Virus record (IMG/VR): IMGVR_UViG_3300045421_000168
Location: 1-35,952 of that record
DNA from: a virus
Reading direction: 5' to 3' (one strand)
Length of the DNA: 35,952 nucleotides
Made by a program: the position numbers and the translations under genes. The notes beneath the pieces were generated by a model. It saw nothing but the letters and a program-made list of their open reading frames with translations, was not told where the DNA came from and did no database searches. Below are positions 5,053-13,302 of this stretch, one piece after another (position 1 is the first letter of the stretch; every line of letters starts with the position of its first letter).

Positions 5053-5249
5053 TGTTCGGAACACGCCGCAAGCAGCCCCCGATGCTTCCCTTCACCGTCA
5101 CAGCTCGGCGTCAAGACAAACCGCCAATCCGCATAGGCATCATCGCCCCATCAGTTGTCGACGCCACCCTTATCGCTCAGGAGCTGTTCCCTAATCAAAT
5201 CATCAGCATCGCATCCATTGAGCCTAAATGGCAGGACGACCCAGCATGA
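5052..5249 (+). CDS. Small unknown protein
   Basis: A 65-residue protein starting at ATG 5052 behind a good ribosome site (GGAGG at 5040-5044, 7 nt upstream). The ATG shares its first base with the preceding TGA. The N-terminus is basic, followed by a hydrophobic beta-like stretch (IRIGIIAPSVVDATLIAQEL) resembling a small alpha/beta unit. No family is recognised. It overlaps the next gene by four bases if that starts at 5246. Confidence 0.55.
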   Translation: MFGTRRKQPPMLPFTVTARRQDKPPIRIGIIAPSVVDATLIAQELFPNQIISIASIEPKWQDDPA

Positions 5250-5452: not shown

Positions 5453-7651
5453 ATGACGCTGCTCGATCAACTCCAGGCCTTGCCTGATGACTGGGCACTA
5501 GTCGCAGTGGGCAACAACAAGCGCCCCTACCAACTCAACTGGCAAAACAGCCCACTCACCAAAGATCAAGCCGCGGCCGAGATCCGATCAGGTCGAGCCA
5601 AGGGCATTGGTGTTCTCGCTGGCCCTGCATCCGGGGGCCTGCTGTTCGTCGATCACGACGGCATCAGCGCCACCGAGGTCCTAGAGCGCATCGGCGCGCC
5701 TTTGCGCGAGCTTCCTAAATCCATCGCAGTCACATCAGGCCGTGACGGCCGCTTTCAGATTGCCTACCGCGTTCCAGTCCAGTTTTGGCAGGCAATGGTC
5801 GGCCGACGCGTCATTAAGTCCGGCAAAGAGGACGCCGAAGGCAAGGCAGAGCAGTTGGAGCTTCGCTGGGTTGGCTGCCAGTCCGTGGTCATTGGCGCGC
5901 ACCCCACCACTTCCGGTTACCGCTGGCTCAAAAGCCGCGCGCCTTATGAGCAGGCCTTGGCCGACGCGCCCCTGGTGCTCATCGAGCAAATGCTCGACAC
6001 CCCCGACCCCAAGTTTGCACCGCTTCTGTCCCAGCAGGCGGCGGGGCCGCCTGCTGCACCCGCGATCGCCGGCGAGGTGCCCTTCCTCGACTTCATCACA
6101 CGCGACAGCCGCCAGCTGATCGAATCCGGCGGCGCACCCGGCCAGTGGAACGACGATCAGCTCCGCCTTGCGCTTGACCTCAAGGGCACCGAGACCTGGT
6201 TGCTAGCTCAAGGCGTCAGGCCCAACCTCAGCGCCTCCGGCGCCTTCGCCCTGCACGTCGCAGCAGCACGCAACAAGGCCCGCGACTTTGACGAGAAGAA
6301 GGCCTGGCATCGCTTTAACGGCGCCGACAAGCACAGCCCGCACCCGGCCACGCCGATCGAGAAGCTCCTGCAGCGCCTCGCTTTCCACACCCGCACCACC
6401 AGGCCGCTCCTGCCATCACCGGCGCCGCACCGCCAGCAGCCGGAGCAGCCCGAGCCCGTCGCCCCTGCAGCGCCAGCGTCGGAGCAGCCCTACGCACCCT
6501 CCTTCTCCAAGCCCAACAAGCTTGAAGCCGGTGAGCTGCTCGCCATGCTCCGCAATCAAGCCGCCGGCGGCCGCATACGCTTCAACCGCTACTCTCAGCA
6601 GGTCGAGCTCGACGGCAGCGTTCTCGAAGGCGCTGAGCGCTTTTACCTCACCCTCGCCGAGCAGGGCTTCAAGGTTTCGAAGGATCTCGCCCTCGATTGC
6701 CTTATTCAGGTCGCCCACGAGAACCCCTACGACCCCGTCCGCCTGTACCTTGAACACGTCGCAGCCACCGTCAGCCCCACCTACATCGGCGGCCTCGCAA
6801 CCGCTTACCTCCGCCCCGAAGACGCCGCAGCCAGCGAGCCCACGCTCTACGACCAAATGCTTCGCTGCACGCTGATCGGCGCCGTCCGGCGCATCTTCGA
6901 GCCCGGCTGCAAGCACGACACCGCCTGCGTGCTCATGGGTGACCAGGGCGCCCGCAAGTCCTCGTTCTGGTCGGCCCTCGGCGGCCCCTTCTTCTCCGAC
7001 GCCCTGGGCGATATCAGCTCAAAGGACGACCTGATGGTGCTCCACCGCTCTTGGATCATGGAATGGGCTGAGCTCGATCACATCACCGGCCGCAAGCACG
7101 CTGGCCACGTGAAAGCCTTCCTTAGCCAGTCGACCGACCTGTTCCGCGTCCCCTACGGTAAGGCCACCGAGGCCTTTCCCCGCCGCGGCATCATCGTCGG
7201 CTCGACCAACCGCTCCACCGGCTTCCTGGTGGACGACACCGGCAACCGCCGCTTCTGGGTCATCCCTACCACCCTCACCGAAGCCGACCCGATCGACACC
7301 GGCACCCTCATGGCCGAACGCGACGCCATTTGGTCCGCAGCCGTTTACGCCTACCGCGCTGGCGAGGCCAATTACCTCCCCGCGCACCTGGCCGACCAGG
7401 TCAACCAGGAGAACGAGGGCTACCGCGTCGACAACCCCTGGCTGCCGGCTGTGCAGCAGTGGCTCGACCAGCGCGTCTTTGGCGAGCAAGTCACCACCGA
7501 GCGCATCCTCATTGAGGCCATCCAAAAGCCCATCGAGCGGCAGACCCGCGCCGATCAAATGGCCGTCGCAGATCTGCTCAGCACCCTCGGCTACGCCCAG
7601 AAGCGCATCAGACAGGAGGGCGTCCGCGCGCGCGTCTGGGTCAAGCCCTGA
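5453..7651 (+). CDS. Primase-polymerase / VirE-type ATPase replication protein
   Basis: A 732-residue replication initiator-like protein. The N-terminus (about 1-190) is a bifunctional primase/polymerase (Prim-Pol) domain: KGIGVLAGPASGGLLFVDHDG carries the metal-binding acidic residues, followed by the SGRDGRFQIAYRV strand. A PriCT-like helical region (about 215-300) and a Pro/Ala-rich linker (about 320-350) follow. The C-terminal half is a VirE/VapE-type P-loop ATPase: GDQGARKSSFW (about 496-506), Walker B region HRSWIMEWAELDH, and GSTNRSTGFLVDDTGNRRFWVIP with the arginine-finger region. The usual Gly before Lys in Walker A is Arg (GARKS), which is odd. It probably primes and unwinds phage DNA. 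A 9-bp repeat array starts just after its stop, matching initiator-next-to-origin logic. Confidence 0.85.
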   Translation: MTLLDQLQALPDDWALVAVGNNKRPYQLNWQNSPLTKDQAAAEIRSGRAKGIGVLAGPASGGLLFVDHDGISATEVLERIGAPLRELPKSIAVTSGRDGRFQIAYRVPVQFWQAMVGRRVIKSGKEDAEGKAEQLELRWVGCQSVVIGAHPTTSGYRWLKSRAPYEQALADAPLVLIEQMLDTPDPKFAPLLSQQAAGPPAAPAIAGEVPFLDFITRDSRQLIESGGAPGQWNDDQLRLALDLKGTETWLLAQGVRPNLSASGAFALHVAAARNKARDFDEKKAWHRFNGADKHSPHPATPIEKLLQRLAFHTRTTRPLLPSPAPHRQQPEQPEPVAPAAPASEQPYAPSFSKPNKLEAGELLAMLRNQAAGGRIRFNRYSQQVELDGSVLEGAERFYLTLAEQGFKVSKDLALDCLIQVAHENPYDPVRLYLEHVAATVSPTYIGGLATAYLRPEDAAASEPTLYDQMLRCTLIGAVRRIFEPGCKHDTACVLMGDQGARKSSFWSALGGPFFSDALGDISSKDDLMVLHRSWIMEWAELDHITGRKHAGHVKAFLSQSTDLFRVPYGKATEAFPRRGIIVGSTNRSTGFLVDDTGNRRFWVIPTTLTEADPIDTGTLMAERDAIWSAAVYAYRAGEANYLPAHLADQVNQENEGYRVDNPWLPAVQQWLDQRVFGEQVTTERILIEAIQKPIERQTRADQMAVADLLSTLGYAQKRIRQEGVRARVWVKP

Positions 7652-7656
7652 AGCGT

Positions 7657-7933
7657 GTCCCAACCTGACGCCTTTTAAGGTTGGGACATGTCCCAACCTC
7701 TTTTTTTGCGCAAAAACCTTGCAGCCACTGCGTTTTGCGCTGCGTGTCCCAACCGGCCCGTGACCCAACCTATTCCCAAGACTTCCAAATCCCTATCCCC
7801 CCCTTCTTTCTACTATTTATTCCTTTTAGGTTGGGTAGGTTGGGACAGTAAGGGACAACTCAGGCCACGACTGGGGTTTAAGCGTCCCAACCTCCCCGCT
7901 AAGGTTGGGACAAGGTTGGGACAAGGTTGGGCC
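7657..7933. repeat. Iteron-like array of GGTTGGGAC / GTCCCAACC (candidate origin)
   Basis: Eleven 9-bp units lie in 277 bp. Exact GTCCCAACC at 7657, 7690, 7746 and 7884; exact GGTTGGGAC at 7679, 7838, 7903 and 7914; one-base to two-base variants at 7762 (GACCCAACC), 7829 (GGTTGGGTA) and 7925 (GGTTGGGCC). The last three form a direct tandem of an 11-bp unit with AAG spacers. The centre (about 7775-7830) is free of exact units and is pyrimidine-rich and AT-richer on the top strand, like an unwinding element. A separate inverted repeat GCGCAAAA/TTTTGCGC spans 7708-7740. Position directly after the primase-ATPase gene fits an iteron origin; an operator cluster for a repressor is the alternative. 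Confidence 0.75.
7678..7707 (+). terminator. Intrinsic terminator-like hairpin after the primase gene
   Basis: Repeat copies 2 and 3 form a perfect 22-bp palindrome (7678-7699) that is followed at once by C and seven T (7701-7707). A GC-rich stem plus T-run is the form of a rho-independent terminator for the replication operon. The stem is made of the iteron unit, so it may serve both as terminator and protein-binding site. Copy 1 (7657-7665) could pair with copy 2 instead and abolish the terminator stem. Confidence 0.65.
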
Positions 7934-7972
7934 ACCCTCATCACGACTACCCTGGCCCTAGGAGGCTCACCC

Positions 7973-8524
7973 ATGGCCGTCATCGACATCAGCGCCCGCG
8001 TCATCGGCGACACCGAGCTGGCTCAAACCCTCTCGCGCCTATCCGCCCACGACATCCCCAAGGCCATCCGCGCTGGCGTCCGCGACGCTGCACGAGCAGG
8101 GCGCACCACCATGGCTAAGTCGATCGGTCAGCGCTACTCGCTCAGCGCTGGCCGCATTAAGCAAGACGTCCCCAACGCACGCTTCATGGCAGGGGGGCAG
8201 ACCGCGATCATCACCACCAGCCGCAAGCCCATCACCGCCATGCAGTTCAAGCCCAGGGAAACACGGGCAGGCCTGGCCATGAGCATCTACCGGGGGGAAA
8301 GGACCGTGGTGAAGTCGGGCTTCATCGCCAAAGGCCTGCCCTTCAAGCGCCGCGGCAAAGAGCGCATGCCCCTTGACGTCATCCACGGCCCCTCCATCCA
8401 CGCCATCTACACGGGCGGCAAGTGGGCCCCAGCCCTCCAGGCACGCACTGAGGTGCGCATTGAGGAAGCCCTCCAATCAGGCGTCATCCGCAGCCTGCAA
8501 GGCATGGGCCGCGGTTTTGGCTAG
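7973..8524 (+). CDS. gpZ-like phage tail protein, displaced
   Basis: A 183-residue protein resembling lambda gpZ (Minor_tail_Z). It has an N-terminal helical region with IPKAIRAGVRDAARAGRTTMAKSI, a region with SLSAGRIKQDV, then basic beta segments (AGLAMSIYRGERTVVKSGFIAKGLPFKRRGKERMPLDVIHGPSI) and a C-terminal helix. The start ATG has a perfect AGGAGG at 7960-7965, 7 nt upstream; the frame is open further back across the repeat array but that part is not protein-like. gpZ acts in completing the head-proximal end of the tail and in lambda lies between FII and U. Here it lies upstream of the cos candidate, while no Z is present between the FII-like and U-like genes at 21319 and 21630. Confidence 0.7.
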   Translation: MAVIDISARVIGDTELAQTLSRLSAHDIPKAIRAGVRDAARAGRTTMAKSIGQRYSLSAGRIKQDVPNARFMAGGQTAIITTSRKPITAMQFKPRETRAGLAMSIYRGERTVVKSGFIAKGLPFKRRGKERMPLDVIHGPSIHAIYTGGKWAPALQARTEVRIEEALQSGVIRSLQGMGRGFG

Positions 8525-9660: not shown

Positions 9661-9720
9661 GAACCGTGACTATGGTGGCCTTATTGGCTGATGCGGATGA
9701 GATCTTCACCAGCGCTGGCG

Positions 9721-10236
9721 ATGGCCAAGCGCATCGAGCTGTGGCCGGTCGAGCGGCTCGTGCCCTACGAGCGCAACGCGCGGACGCACAGCCCGCAGCA
9801 GGTAGCGCAGATTGCGGCCTCAATCTCCGAGTTCGGATTTCTGAACCCAATCCTTGTCGACAGCAAGGACGGGATCATCGCGGGCCACGGCCGGCTGGCG
9901 GCGGCAAAGGACATGGGCCTGGTCGAGGTGCCGGTGGTAGTGCTCGATCACCTGACGCCGGCGCAACGAAAGGCCTACGTCCTTGCGGACAACCGCATCG
10001 CACTGAACGCCGGCTGGGACGTGAGCCTCCTTGCCGAGGAGCTTGCTGGCCTTCAGCTTCAGGAGTTCGACCTCGACCTCCTCGGCTTCGACGAGAAGGA
10101 GCTTCAAGGGCTCCTCGACCCCGAGCAGATCGACAGCGAAGGCCCGCCCGACGAGTTCAAGGAGGTCGACGACGACATTGAGACCGAGCACCGCTGCCCG
10201 AGCTGCGGCTACGAGTGGAGCGGGAAGACGAAATGA
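9721..10236 (+). CDS. ParB-like N-terminal domain protein
   Basis: A 171-residue protein with a ParB/Srx-type domain at residues 1-95: PVERLVPYERNARTHSPQQV, ISEFGFLNPILVDSKDGIIAGHGRLAAAKDMG and VEVPVVVLDHLTPAQRKAYVLADNRIALNAGWD. An acidic segment follows, and it ends with a possible half zinc site CPSCGYEW. ParB-like domains of this type commonly adjoin DNA methyltransferases and may bind DNA or nucleotides. Start is uncertain: ATG 9721 fits the usual domain start, but in-frame ATGs at 9691 and 9697 exist and none has a good ribosome site. Its stop shares ATGA with the methyltransferase start, so the two are coupled. Confidence 0.8.
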   Translation: MAKRIELWPVERLVPYERNARTHSPQQVAQIAASISEFGFLNPILVDSKDGIIAGHGRLAAAKDMGLVEVPVVVLDHLTPAQRKAYVLADNRIALNAGWDVSLLAEELAGLQLQEFDLDLLGFDEKELQGLLDPEQIDSEGPPDEFKEVDDDIETEHRCPSCGYEWSGKTK

Positions 10237-11294
10237 CGAAGCCTCCCTACCGGGTGCCGTCGATGAAGGAGATCGAGGCGCTGCCGTGGAACGGCTACCG
10301 CGTCGCCTCGACCTTCTCCGGCTGCGGCGGCTCGTGCCTTGGCTACCGGATGGCGGGCTACCGCGTTGTTTATGCGAACGAGTTCATCGAGGAGGCGCAG
10401 CGGACTTACAAGGCCAACCATCCGAAGAGCTTCCTCGACATCAGGGACATCCGCCAGGTCAAGTCAGAGGATGTACTAGAGAAAGCGGGCGTCGATCGCG
10501 GCGAGCTTGACCTCTTTGACGGCTCGCCGCCGTGCTCAGCGTTTTCGACAGCCGGGAAGCGCGAGGCCGGATGGGGCAAGGTCAAGGCCTACAGCGACAA
10601 GGCGCAGCGGGTTGACGACCTGTTCTTCGAGTATGTGCGGCTGATTGACGGGATCCGGCCGAAGGTCTTTGTCGCGGAGAACGTCAGCGGCCTGGTGAAG
10701 GGGACAGCGAAGGGCTACTTCAAGCGGATCCTCGCGGCGCTACGTGAGCCGGGCTACCGCGTGAGCTGCCGCGTGCTCGATGCGCAGTGGCTTGGCGTTC
10801 CGCAAATGCGGGCCCGAACGATCTTCGTCGGCGTGCGGGATGACCTCGGGCTCGATCCGGTTCACCCGGCGCCGTTGCCCTACCGCTACACGGTCGGCGA
10901 GGCCGTCGAGGGGCTAGCGGCCGATGGCGAGGCGAAGCGGCTCAAGCCTGGAACCGACACGCACCGCTACTGGCTGGCGACGCGCCCGGGTGACTCGCTG
11001 TCAGATGCGTGCAAGCAGCTGACCGGGAAGAACAGCTTCCTGACACACGTGAAGCAGTCGCCGCACCGTCAGGCGAACACGATTACCCAAGGCACGCAGC
11101 AGCTTTACCATTGGGCCGAGCCCCGGACACTGAGCCTGCAAGAGCTCCGGCGCGTCGGTGGCTTCCCCGACGACTTTGAGCTGACCGGCGACTTCACCCA
11201 GCGGTGGGAGCGGATCGGCCGGGCTGTTCCTCCCCTGATGATGGCCCGCATCGCCAAGCACGTTGAGGAGAACATCCTGCGATGTGTGGCTTAG
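10233..11294 (+). CDS. C5-cytosine DNA methyltransferase with Arg in motif X (possible carboxymethyltransferase)
   Basis: A 353-residue C5-cytosine methyltransferase. Motif I STFSGCGG (26-33) binds the SAM-type cofactor; motif IV SPPCSAFS has the catalytic Cys101; motif VI AENV is at 148-151; motif VIII QMRAR at 191-195; the target-recognition region is about 215-300; motif X is near 326-334. In motif X the nearly invariant Asn of GN(S/A)VPP is replaced: the protein reads GRAVPP with Arg330. From the literature as I recall it, changing this Asn to a basic residue in M.MpeI allows use of carboxy-SAM. A CmoA-like gene lies two genes downstream. The preferred ATG 10233 overlaps the ParB-like stop; the gene overlaps asnB by 13 nt. 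Methylation of cytosine is the default alternative. Confidence 0.9.
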   Translation: MTKPPYRVPSMKEIEALPWNGYRVASTFSGCGGSCLGYRMAGYRVVYANEFIEEAQRTYKANHPKSFLDIRDIRQVKSEDVLEKAGVDRGELDLFDGSPPCSAFSTAGKREAGWGKVKAYSDKAQRVDDLFFEYVRLIDGIRPKVFVAENVSGLVKGTAKGYFKRILAALREPGYRVSCRVLDAQWLGVPQMRARTIFVGVRDDLGLDPVHPAPLPYRYTVGEAVEGLAADGEAKRLKPGTDTHRYWLATRPGDSLSDACKQLTGKNSFLTHVKQSPHRQANTITQGTQQLYHWAEPRTLSLQELRRVGGFPDDFELTGDFTQRWERIGRAVPPLMMARIAKHVEENILRCVA

Positions 11295-12649
11295 CTGGCG
11301 CCATCAACGAGAGCCCACGGGTCGTTGCCGGGATGCTGGACCGCATCCAGCACCGTGGCCCTGATGGCCAGGGCATCAAGGAACATGATGCAGCTGTTCA
11401 TGGCCACGTGCGCCTAGCGCTGGTCGATCTGTCGGCTGCATCGAGCCAGCCTTTCATCCGCGCATCCAACACTCTGACCTTTAATGGGGAGATCTGGAAT
11501 CACAACGCATTGCGCGCTGAGCTGAAAGCTGCTGGCGTTGAGTTCGTGACGATCGGAGACACCGAGGTGCTGGCAGCAATGCTGGAGCGCTATGGCCTGG
11601 AGTGCCTTCAACGGCTCGATGGGATGTTCGCCTTCGCCTGGAGCGATGCCAGGAACAATCACTGGCTGGTGCGCGATGCGTTCGGGAAGATCCCTGTCTA
11701 TCTAGCTAAGACGAATAAGGGCTACTTGTGGGCCTCTGAGCGCAAGGCCTTCCCGTCAGGCGTCAAGCCGATCGCGGTGCCACCTGGCTATGCCTTCAAC
11801 CTTGTCACCGGCGAATGGCGCTACTGGTATCAGCTGCCAGGCGCAGCACCGATGGATGCAGCCGCCCTGCTGGGTCATTTGCGCGCTGGCGTTCGGAAGC
11901 GGCTCACGGCCGATGCTCCTGTCTGCTGCCTGATCTCTGGCGGCTTGGACAGCAGCATCGTCCTGGCGCTGGCCAAGGAGATGAGCCCTTATGTCACGGC
12001 CTACACCGCTGTCCATTCCAAGCGCTCTGCCGACCTGAAATCGGCGCGGCGCATTTGCTCTGACCTGGGCGTGAAGCTCGTCGAGGTCGATGTGGCGTTC
12101 TCCCGTGACGCGATTGAGGATGCGCTCTACTCGATCGAGATTTCGAGCAAGGCGCAGATAGAGATCGCTGCGCTCTGCATCCCTCTGGCGCGCCGGATCT
12201 ATGCCGATGGTTTCCGGGCTTGCCTGTCCGGCGAAGCTGCCGATGAGCTGTTCGGCGGTTACGGCAACTTCTGCATCAAGGCTTCCAAGGCGAACGATGC
12301 AGATATCGTTGCGCTGCGCCGAGCCCAGCTGAGCAAGATGGCGCGCGGCAACTTCGTCAGATGCAACAAGGCTTTCATGGCAGCTGGCGTCGAGTGTCGG
12401 CTGCCCTTCATGGAGCAGCCCCTAGTCGAGGCGGCGATCCAGCTGTCCAAAGCTGATTCACCGCCAGGCAAGGGCCTGCTCAAGGCAGCCGCCCGCTCGG
12501 TGCTCCCGTCCTGGGTGATCACTCGAAAAAAGGACACGTTCCAGGGCGGCAGCGGCATGTCTGACACCGTGGCCGGACAAGTGGCCAATCCCATCGTTTT
12601 CTACAACACCGAACTCCGCAAGGCGTTCGGCTACCTCCCTAAAGACTGA
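11282..12649 (+). CDS. AsnB-like glutamine-dependent amidotransferase
   Basis: A 455-residue class II amidotransferase of the asparagine synthase family. The glutaminase domain (1-185) has the N-terminal nucleophile Cys2 (MCGLAG), RGPDG, R44, FNGE (67-70) and GDTE (92-95), all expected for glutamine hydrolysis. The synthetase domain has the ATP pyrophosphatase loop SGGLDSS (219-225) and SGEAADELFGGYG (316-328). It would adenylate a carboxylate and convert it to an amide. The segment corresponding to the strongly conserved ETYDVTTIRASTP of true asparagine synthetases reads quite differently here (about 285-301), and the protein is about 100 residues shorter than E. coli AsnB. A substrate other than aspartate is thus likely; a carboxymethylated base is my suggestion from context. 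Confidence 0.88.
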   Translation: MCGLAGAINESPRVVAGMLDRIQHRGPDGQGIKEHDAAVHGHVRLALVDLSAASSQPFIRASNTLTFNGEIWNHNALRAELKAAGVEFVTIGDTEVLAAMLERYGLECLQRLDGMFAFAWSDARNNHWLVRDAFGKIPVYLAKTNKGYLWASERKAFPSGVKPIAVPPGYAFNLVTGEWRYWYQLPGAAPMDAAALLGHLRAGVRKRLTADAPVCCLISGGLDSSIVLALAKEMSPYVTAYTAVHSKRSADLKSARRICSDLGVKLVEVDVAFSRDAIEDALYSIEISSKAQIEIAALCIPLARRIYADGFRACLSGEAADELFGGYGNFCIKASKANDADIVALRRAQLSKMARGNFVRCNKAFMAAGVECRLPFMEQPLVEAAIQLSKADSPPGKGLLKAAARSVLPSWVITRKKDTFQGGSGMSDTVAGQVANPIVFYNTELRKAFGYLPKD

Positions 12650-13302
12650 TGGACATCCCCACTAACTGGACCTTCGAGACTGCTGGCGTCGCCGCTGGGT
12701 TCGATCGTCACGTCCGCGAGCAGCTGCCGTGGTACGACCTGGCCACAAATGCGGTCACGCACATTGCCCGGCACTACATCCCGGAAGGCGGGCTGGTCTA
12801 CGACCTCGGCGCCGCAACTGGGAACATCGGCCGGGCGATCGCGCCGGTCCTTGCGGATCGTCAGGCGCGGCTGATCGGGATCGAGCCATCGGCGGAGATG
12901 GTGAAGCGCTACGAGGCGCCTGGCGAGATCGTCTGCGCGAAGGCTGAGGACGTCGATTTCGAGGCCTTTGATCTCGCGGTCGTTTTCCTGACGCTGATGT
13001 TCATCGAGCCCAGGAAGCGCGTGCAACTGATGAACCGGCTACGGCACGCCTGCCGTCCTGGCGGAGCGATCGTCGTCTTTGACAAGCTTGAACCAGTCGG
13101 CGGCTACCTAAGCACGGTCTTCTACCGCCTGACCCTTGCGGGCAAGCGCGCGGCCGGCGTGCCGTCTGAAGAGATTGTCGAGAAGGAGCTCAGCCTTTCC
13201 GGGGTGCAACGGCCGATCGTCGAGAGCCAGCTTGGCGGCGAGTCCTACCTGTGGTTCAAGTTCGGCGACTTCGCCGGCTGGGTGATCGAGAGGCCCGCAT
13301 GA
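12649..13302 (+). CDS. CmoA-like SAM-dependent enzyme (candidate carboxy-SAM synthase)
   Basis: A 217-residue class I Rossmann methyltransferase-fold protein. It aligns by eye with E. coli CmoA along most of its length: WTFETAGVAAGFDRHV, QLPWYD (Tyr29 matching CmoA Tyr39), VYDLGAATGN (cofactor loop, 50-59), LTLMFIEPRKRVQLMNRL (114-131), RPGGAIVVFDK (136-146), and YLWFKFGDFAGWV at the C-terminus matching ELWFQCFNFGSLVA. CmoA makes Cx-SAM from SAM and prephenate for tRNA wobble-uridine modification. By gapless local alignment CmoA Arg199, which holds the carboxylate, falls on Glu180 here, and a helix of about 8 residues is missing. No CmoB partner is seen; a DNA methyltransferase is the neighbour. 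An ordinary small-molecule methyltransferase is the alternative. The start overlaps the asnB-like stop by one base. Confidence 0.75.
   Translation: MDIPTNWTFETAGVAAGFDRHVREQLPWYDLATNAVTHIARHYIPEGGLVYDLGAATGNIGRAIAPVLADRQARLIGIEPSAEMVKRYEAPGEIVCAKAEDVDFEAFDLAVVFLTLMFIEPRKRVQLMNRLRHACRPGGAIVVFDKLEPVGGYLSTVFYRLTLAGKRAAGVPSEEIVEKELSLSGVQRPIVESQLGGESYLWFKFGDFAGWVIERPA

Follow-up and report, generated by a model that had tools for sequence, protein, structure and literature searches.

The Locus and Its Genes

The window analyzed here is the whole virus record IMGVR_UViG_3300045421_000168, 35,952 nucleotides long and 63.5% GC. Genes for terminase, portal, head, sheath, tube, and baseplate are present, so the record was assigned to a contractile-tailed phage. 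For its replication initiator, the best named relative is S-LBS1, a siphovirus of freshwater Synechococcus, and the sole bacterial genome match of this protein is a Cyanobium bin, which points to a cyanobacterial host. On the minus strand, positions 1095-2846 encode a RecT-like annealing protein and an exonuclease VIII-like nuclease, divergent from the replication genes. A ParB_N gene is located at 9691-10236, about 1.7 kb downstream of the array described below, and the region between its product and the terminase (10215-13302) holds genes for a C5 cytosine methylase, an asparagine-synthase-like amidotransferase, and a small methyltransferase, a run with a possible role in DNA or surface modification.

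Between the stop codon of the initiator gene and the start codon of the following one lies a noncoding gap of 321 bp (Table 1). The open reading frame 7688-8524, which runs through the array, was rejected as a start; the ATG at 7973 is preceded by AGGAGG and the relatives begin at the equivalent codon. Searching the window with Rfam and for tRNAs gave no matches.

Table 1: Position of the initiator gene, the repeats, and the associated elements in the window.
Feature	Position	Strand	Evidence or remarks
Initiator gene: Prim-Pol, VapE-like helicase, and C-terminal winged helix	5453-7651	+	Pfam, Foldseek
Coding sequence of residues 661-732, a predicted winged helix for origin binding	7433-7648	+	AF2 model; covariation with the iteron; 7pds_B, Z 5.7
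Candidate replication origin	7652-7972		Entire noncoding gap, primase stop to next ATG
Iteron 1	7657-7665	-	Exact
Iteron 2	7679-7687	+	Exact
Iteron 3	7690-7698	-	Exact
Intrinsic terminator of the primase gene	7678-7707	+	Perfect 22-bp palindrome made by iterons 2 and 3, then a T run
Iteron 4	7746-7754	-	Exact; left set of the core
Iteron 5	7762-7770	-	One mismatch; left set of the core
Core, probable unwinding element	7771-7828		58 bp, AT-rich, pyrimidine-rich (purine-rich on -); kept in relatives in either orientation
Iteron 6	7829-7837	+	Two mismatches; right set of the core; 9-bp tandem with iteron 7
Iteron 7	7838-7846	+	Exact
Iteron 8	7884-7892	-	Exact
Iteron 9	7903-7911	+	Exact; 11-bp tandem
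Iteron 10	7914-7922	+	Exact
Iteron 11	7925-7933	+	One mismatch
Ribosome-binding site AGGAGG of the next gene (tail completion/neck protein)	7960-7965	+	ATG at 7973

The Repeat Array

The initial annotation had described in this gap eleven copies of a 9-bp repeat in both orientations, eight exact and three near, with a tandem of three 11-bp units at the right end and an AT-richer centre. All of this was reproduced. The word GGTTGGGAC occurs eleven times within 7657-7933, six times on the plus strand and five on the minus strand, and the near copies (GGTTGGGTC, GGTTGGGTA, and GGTTGGGCC for iterons 5, 6, and 11) carry one or two changes each. The last three copies follow one another with a period of 11 bp and the pair at the right edge of the core with a period of 9 bp, and the central 60 bp rank about 10th in AT-richness among 35,892 start positions. 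The first copy starts only 6 bases past the stop codon of the initiator.

By eye, the repeat had not been seen in the rest of the window, and the count over the whole record bears this out, with all eight exact copies inside the array. When one mismatch was allowed there were 15 matches against 7.4 expected, a number that none of 100 shuffles reached; of the 15, ten belong to the array, and the remaining five are no more than chance would place outside it. Within 400 bp downstream of the primase stop codon the 8-mer AGGTTGGG appears 10 times (shuffle mean 2.0; none of 200 shuffles got to 10), while the commonest 8-mer of the other 400-bp tiles of the window never exceeded four copies. A scan for sigma-70-like promoters in 7500-8100 found none. 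Considering that copies are lacking elsewhere and that no such promoter was found, the possibility of repeats scattered at promoters is excluded at the level of the sequence.

Two aspects go beyond the initial annotation: the hairpin that terminates the primase gene (7678-7699) is built from iterons 2 and 3, and among relatives the core can face either way. A second hairpin, GCGCAAAA...TTTTGCGC, is situated between terminator and core (7708-7740); similar ones were seen by eye beside the core in relatives, and it is a possible priming or loading signal. The GC skew has a local minimum near 9-10 kb and its lowest value near 34-35 kb, which is not decisive as evidence of an origin.

The Initiator Protein

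Residues 11-173 of the initiator correspond to an archaeo-eukaryotic-type primase (Prim-Pol; Pfam PF09250, 2.6e-15), with a fold match to 1rni, the pRN1 ORF904 protein (Foldseek 5.1e-5), and residues 459-657 to a VapE-like helicase (PF05272, 1e-62). The protein also matched PriRep1 (7pds) with a Foldseek E of 1.3e-11 and a profile E of 1.6e-34. In the AF2 model, which is poor in part of the helicase (pLDDT under 50 at 538-598), the C-terminus adopts a helix-helix-helix-strand-strand arrangement, that is, a predicted winged helix; its structural matches reach a Z of 7 at most, are spread over many winged helices, and tell nothing about family apart from the fold itself.

Arrays in Related Loci

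Relatives of the initiator comprised 80 viral proteins (52-100% identity), the Cyanobium locus, and S-LBS1; truncated ones were left out, which gave 80 loci, the window included. An array was accepted when the commonest 8-mer in the 400 bp after the stop exceeded what all but 1% of shuffles give. By this test 43 of the 80 loci had a significant array de novo, near-identical loci being counted (L010 is a second contig of the same virus), and about half of the relatives had weak arrays. The words in the gap of the related phages are lineage-specific: GGTAGGGCA, GGTTGGAAG, GGTTGGCAA, GGTTGGTAA, GGTGGGGTA, GGTTAGGCA, GGTCGGATC, and others, mostly of the form GGT-N-R-G-NNN. The words of loci L060 and L069 were set by eye and those of L019, L049, and L078 are uncertain; the results were unchanged without these five.

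Most loci share a common plan: two sets of iterons in opposite orientation face inward across a core of about 50-80 bp. In 25 loci delimited by script the core gap had a median of 71 bp and an AT fraction of 0.54, against 0.38 for the locus, and it was strongly purine-rich on one strand. The matches of a profile built from nine cores, some in one orientation and some in the other, all fell immediately 3' of the initiator gene. The coding strand carries the pyrimidines in the window, L016, and L021, and the purines in S-LBS1, L030, L039, L058, and L090; the core of the window aligns with that of L062 inverted, with 75% identity (window 7791-7893). The same layout precedes different downstream genes.

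In S-LBS1 (MG271909, 34242-34641) the iteron block comes a second time, shifted by 254 bp and running to the record's end, which could be either a true duplication of the origin or an assembly overlap of a circular or permuted genome. The text of the paper on this phage (PMC6157547) was searched and does not mention repeats, iterons, or an origin of replication.

Coupling between the Repeat Word and the C-Terminus

The distance between iteron words correlated with the distance between the last 72 residues of the initiators (rho 0.48, p 0.0005), also when the rest of the protein was taken into account (partial 0.44, p 0.0005). The correlation was weak with the helicase (0.27) and not significant with the primase domain (0.09, p 0.08). 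In sliding windows it peaked at residues 651-690 and 701-732, and 31 of the 60 best covarying residues were within 661-732, where about 7 were expected. Prediction of the word by nearest neighbor left 1.59 mismatches of 9 with the C-terminus, 2.32 with the helicase, 2.29 with the primase, and 2.90 at random.

Proximity alone was rejected as the cause of this covariation, given that the downstream gene, which is also adjacent, shows none. For the 16 loci sharing the tail-completion gene the word correlated at 0.71 with the C-terminus and at 0.06 with the downstream gene (p 0.29), and for the 13 loci with a second downstream-gene family the values were 0.63 and -0.15. Co-inheritance could nevertheless contribute: C-terminus and array adjoin, so they would correlate even without contact if they moved as one unit, and part of the covariation may reflect inheritance of one cassette rather than contact. 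The covariation strongly supports a C-terminal domain that would set the specificity for the iteron.

The pair L021 and L048 illustrates an apparent exchange of this unit. Their DNA is 83% identical until 229 bp before the stop, falls to about 40-60% across the winged helix and the array, where almost nothing can be aligned except one 57-bp piece, and is 84% identical again from 296 bp after the stop. The word is GGTAGGGCA in L021 and GGTTGGCAA in L048 and the cores are oppositely oriented. The window and L062 repeat the pattern less sharply (helicase 89% identical, C-terminus 43%), and L014 and L052, which have one common word, show no dip in identity. From these alignments, C-terminus and origin have apparently been exchanged as one cassette.

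Arrays beyond the Relatives of This Initiator

The Microcystis plasmid p2-NIES88 (NZ_AP024567) has 3117 bp and, besides a VapE gene, a single further annotated gene. Directly after the VapE gene there are nine AGGTAGGG words (a GGTAGGG array) around a very AT-rich stretch, and the C-terminus of its VapE protein is nearest, at low identity, to that of the GGTAGGGCA-type phages. Arrays with quite different words were found after the VapE genes of Paenibacillus, Enterococcus, Streptococcus, Corynebacterium, and Rhodobacter phages, of a streptococcal satellite, and of the Gluconobacter plasmid pGO128. The same test found no significant array downstream of VapE in Bacteroides BK687P6, Gardnerella AB1, Xanthomonas KPhi1, Streptococcus Taco, and Leuconostoc LN34, nor in Blautia, C. 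aponinum, Nostoc, and Phormidium, and the region downstream in BIP-1 had no repeat family like an iteron array.

Comparison with Known Systems

In SaPIs, the C-terminus of Rep recognizes iterons directly downstream of its own gene (PMC7581432, PMC6092414), and PICI origins have an AT-rich region between two iteron sets (PMC6092414). The locus agrees with them in the position of the array directly 3' of an initiator-helicase gene, in the two iteron sets around an AT-rich region, and in a helicase homologous to PriRep1. It differs in that it belongs to a full contractile-tailed phage and not to a satellite dependent on a helper for virion proteins, these genes being present in the window, and in its fused archaeal-type Prim-Pol like that of pRN1 ORF904, its other iteron words, and a core that may lie either way round. 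Judged from these sequence comparisons, the locus is a predicted iteron origin of SaPI/PICI type, P4-like, in a tailed phage.

The initial annotation had likened the array to the origin of satellite P4, whose alpha protein unites primase, helicase, and a repeat-binding C-terminal winged helix (PMC4234260). As a functional analogy this is good, the same three parts being present here in one protein, the winged helix by structure prediction; P4 is not the closest relative, however, since its primase is of the TOPRIM type and the one described here is PF09250, the helicase is VapE/SaPI-like, and the SaPI/PICI layout fits better. Another parallel is the Vibrio cholerae satellite PLE, where the DNA-binding domain and the ori also covary and are swapped together (PMC8263062), although PLE has an unrelated RepA_N initiator, iterons of about 30 bp, and an N-terminal binding domain.

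With pRN1 the initiator shares the Prim-Pol fold, the helicase and C-terminal winged helix in the same protein, and an essential element directly 3' of the gene, with inverted arms around an AT-rich 58 bp. In pRN1 (5084-5183) these are a 21-nt stem and a 58-nt loop, and each arm contains two TGTCCA words spaced by 9 bp, like the tandem iterons of the phages. For replicons with archaeal-type primases, recognition of a stem-loop has been proposed and pRN1 is said to have no iteron structure (PMC4234260). We hypothesize from the words in the arms that these could be inverted initiator sites; that reading is weakened because a stem mutant was rescued once symmetry was restored and because gel shifts and footprints were reported without specific binding (PMC4234260); the negative gel shifts and footprints also count against an explanation by iteron binding.

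Interpretation of the Locus

Taking into account that the layout is kept after the same gene while the word changes and covaries with the winged helix, recognition of the origin by the primase-helicase itself is supported. The proposal of a candidate origin after the primase gene gains from the comparison of loci, in which position, core, and inverted arrangement persist, and we consider it very probable that 7652-7972 is the iteron-type replication origin of the phage, bound by its own primase-helicase via the C-terminal winged helix.

Recognition of a real origin as a stem-loop or cruciform, with the repeats acting by pairing and not as words bound by a protein, would agree with the perfect 10-bp pairing of 7763-7772 with 7827-7836 around a 54-nt loop, with the DNA fold (z -5.6), and with the rescued stem mutant of pRN1. 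Iterons are present alongside these arms, though, and many copies, repeated on one strand every 9 or 11 bp, are outside any such stem; an identical word in all copies is more than pairing by itself would need, and the word covaries with the winged helix, so this explanation appears unlikely. Two iterons do form an intrinsic terminator, as would suit a cluster of operators or terminators serving the surrounding genes instead of an origin. Such a role is very improbable in view of the lack of promoter-like sites and of excess copies elsewhere, the same layout before different downstream genes, the AT-rich core of conserved sequence, and the same array in the tiny Microcystis plasmid. The neighboring ParB-like gene might suggest a parS-like partition site, or else a packaging site could be imagined. 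That gene, however, lies ahead of the C5 cytosine methylase and has a further match to a family of DNA methyltransferases, S-LBS1 has the array and no annotated ParB, and the repeat tracks the winged helix of the initiator, all of which leaves this idea with hardly any credit.

For the iteron origin that we favor, we infer that the initiator binds the repeats, that the core is melted and the helicase loaded, that priming takes place there, and that the locus acts as an origin; the steps would be as follows. The initiator encoded upstream would bind the GGTTGGGAC iterons by its winged helix (residues about 661-732), and the inward-facing sets 7746-7770 and 7829-7846 would hold it on either side of the 58-bp AT-rich, strand-asymmetric core. 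Rings of the VapE-like helicase would then load at the core, melt it, and unwind outward, with the fused Prim-Pol domain making the first primers. The outer copies (7657-7698 and 7884-7933) may strengthen or regulate binding, and the iteron 2/3 pair may double as a terminator, shielding the core from transcription of the primase gene.

A broader reading, possible though doubtful, is that winged helix and array are a swappable replication-type cassette common to siphoviruses, myoviruses, and small cyanobacterial plasmids, giving rise to compatibility types, and that the stem-loop origin of pRN1 is the same thing, with two inverted pairs of 9-bp-spaced TGGACA initiator sites around an AT-rich core.

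Complete tailed phages of cyanobacterial type, other VapE phages, and a 3.1-kb plasmid would all carry origins of this kind. The origin can be tested in the cultured phage S-LBS1, and p2-NIES88, as a very small replicon, suits tests of the mechanism; more than 10 iteron words with matching winged helices would provide a ready code for testing how a winged helix reads DNA. The exchange of the cassette predicts replication types able to block or parasitize each other.
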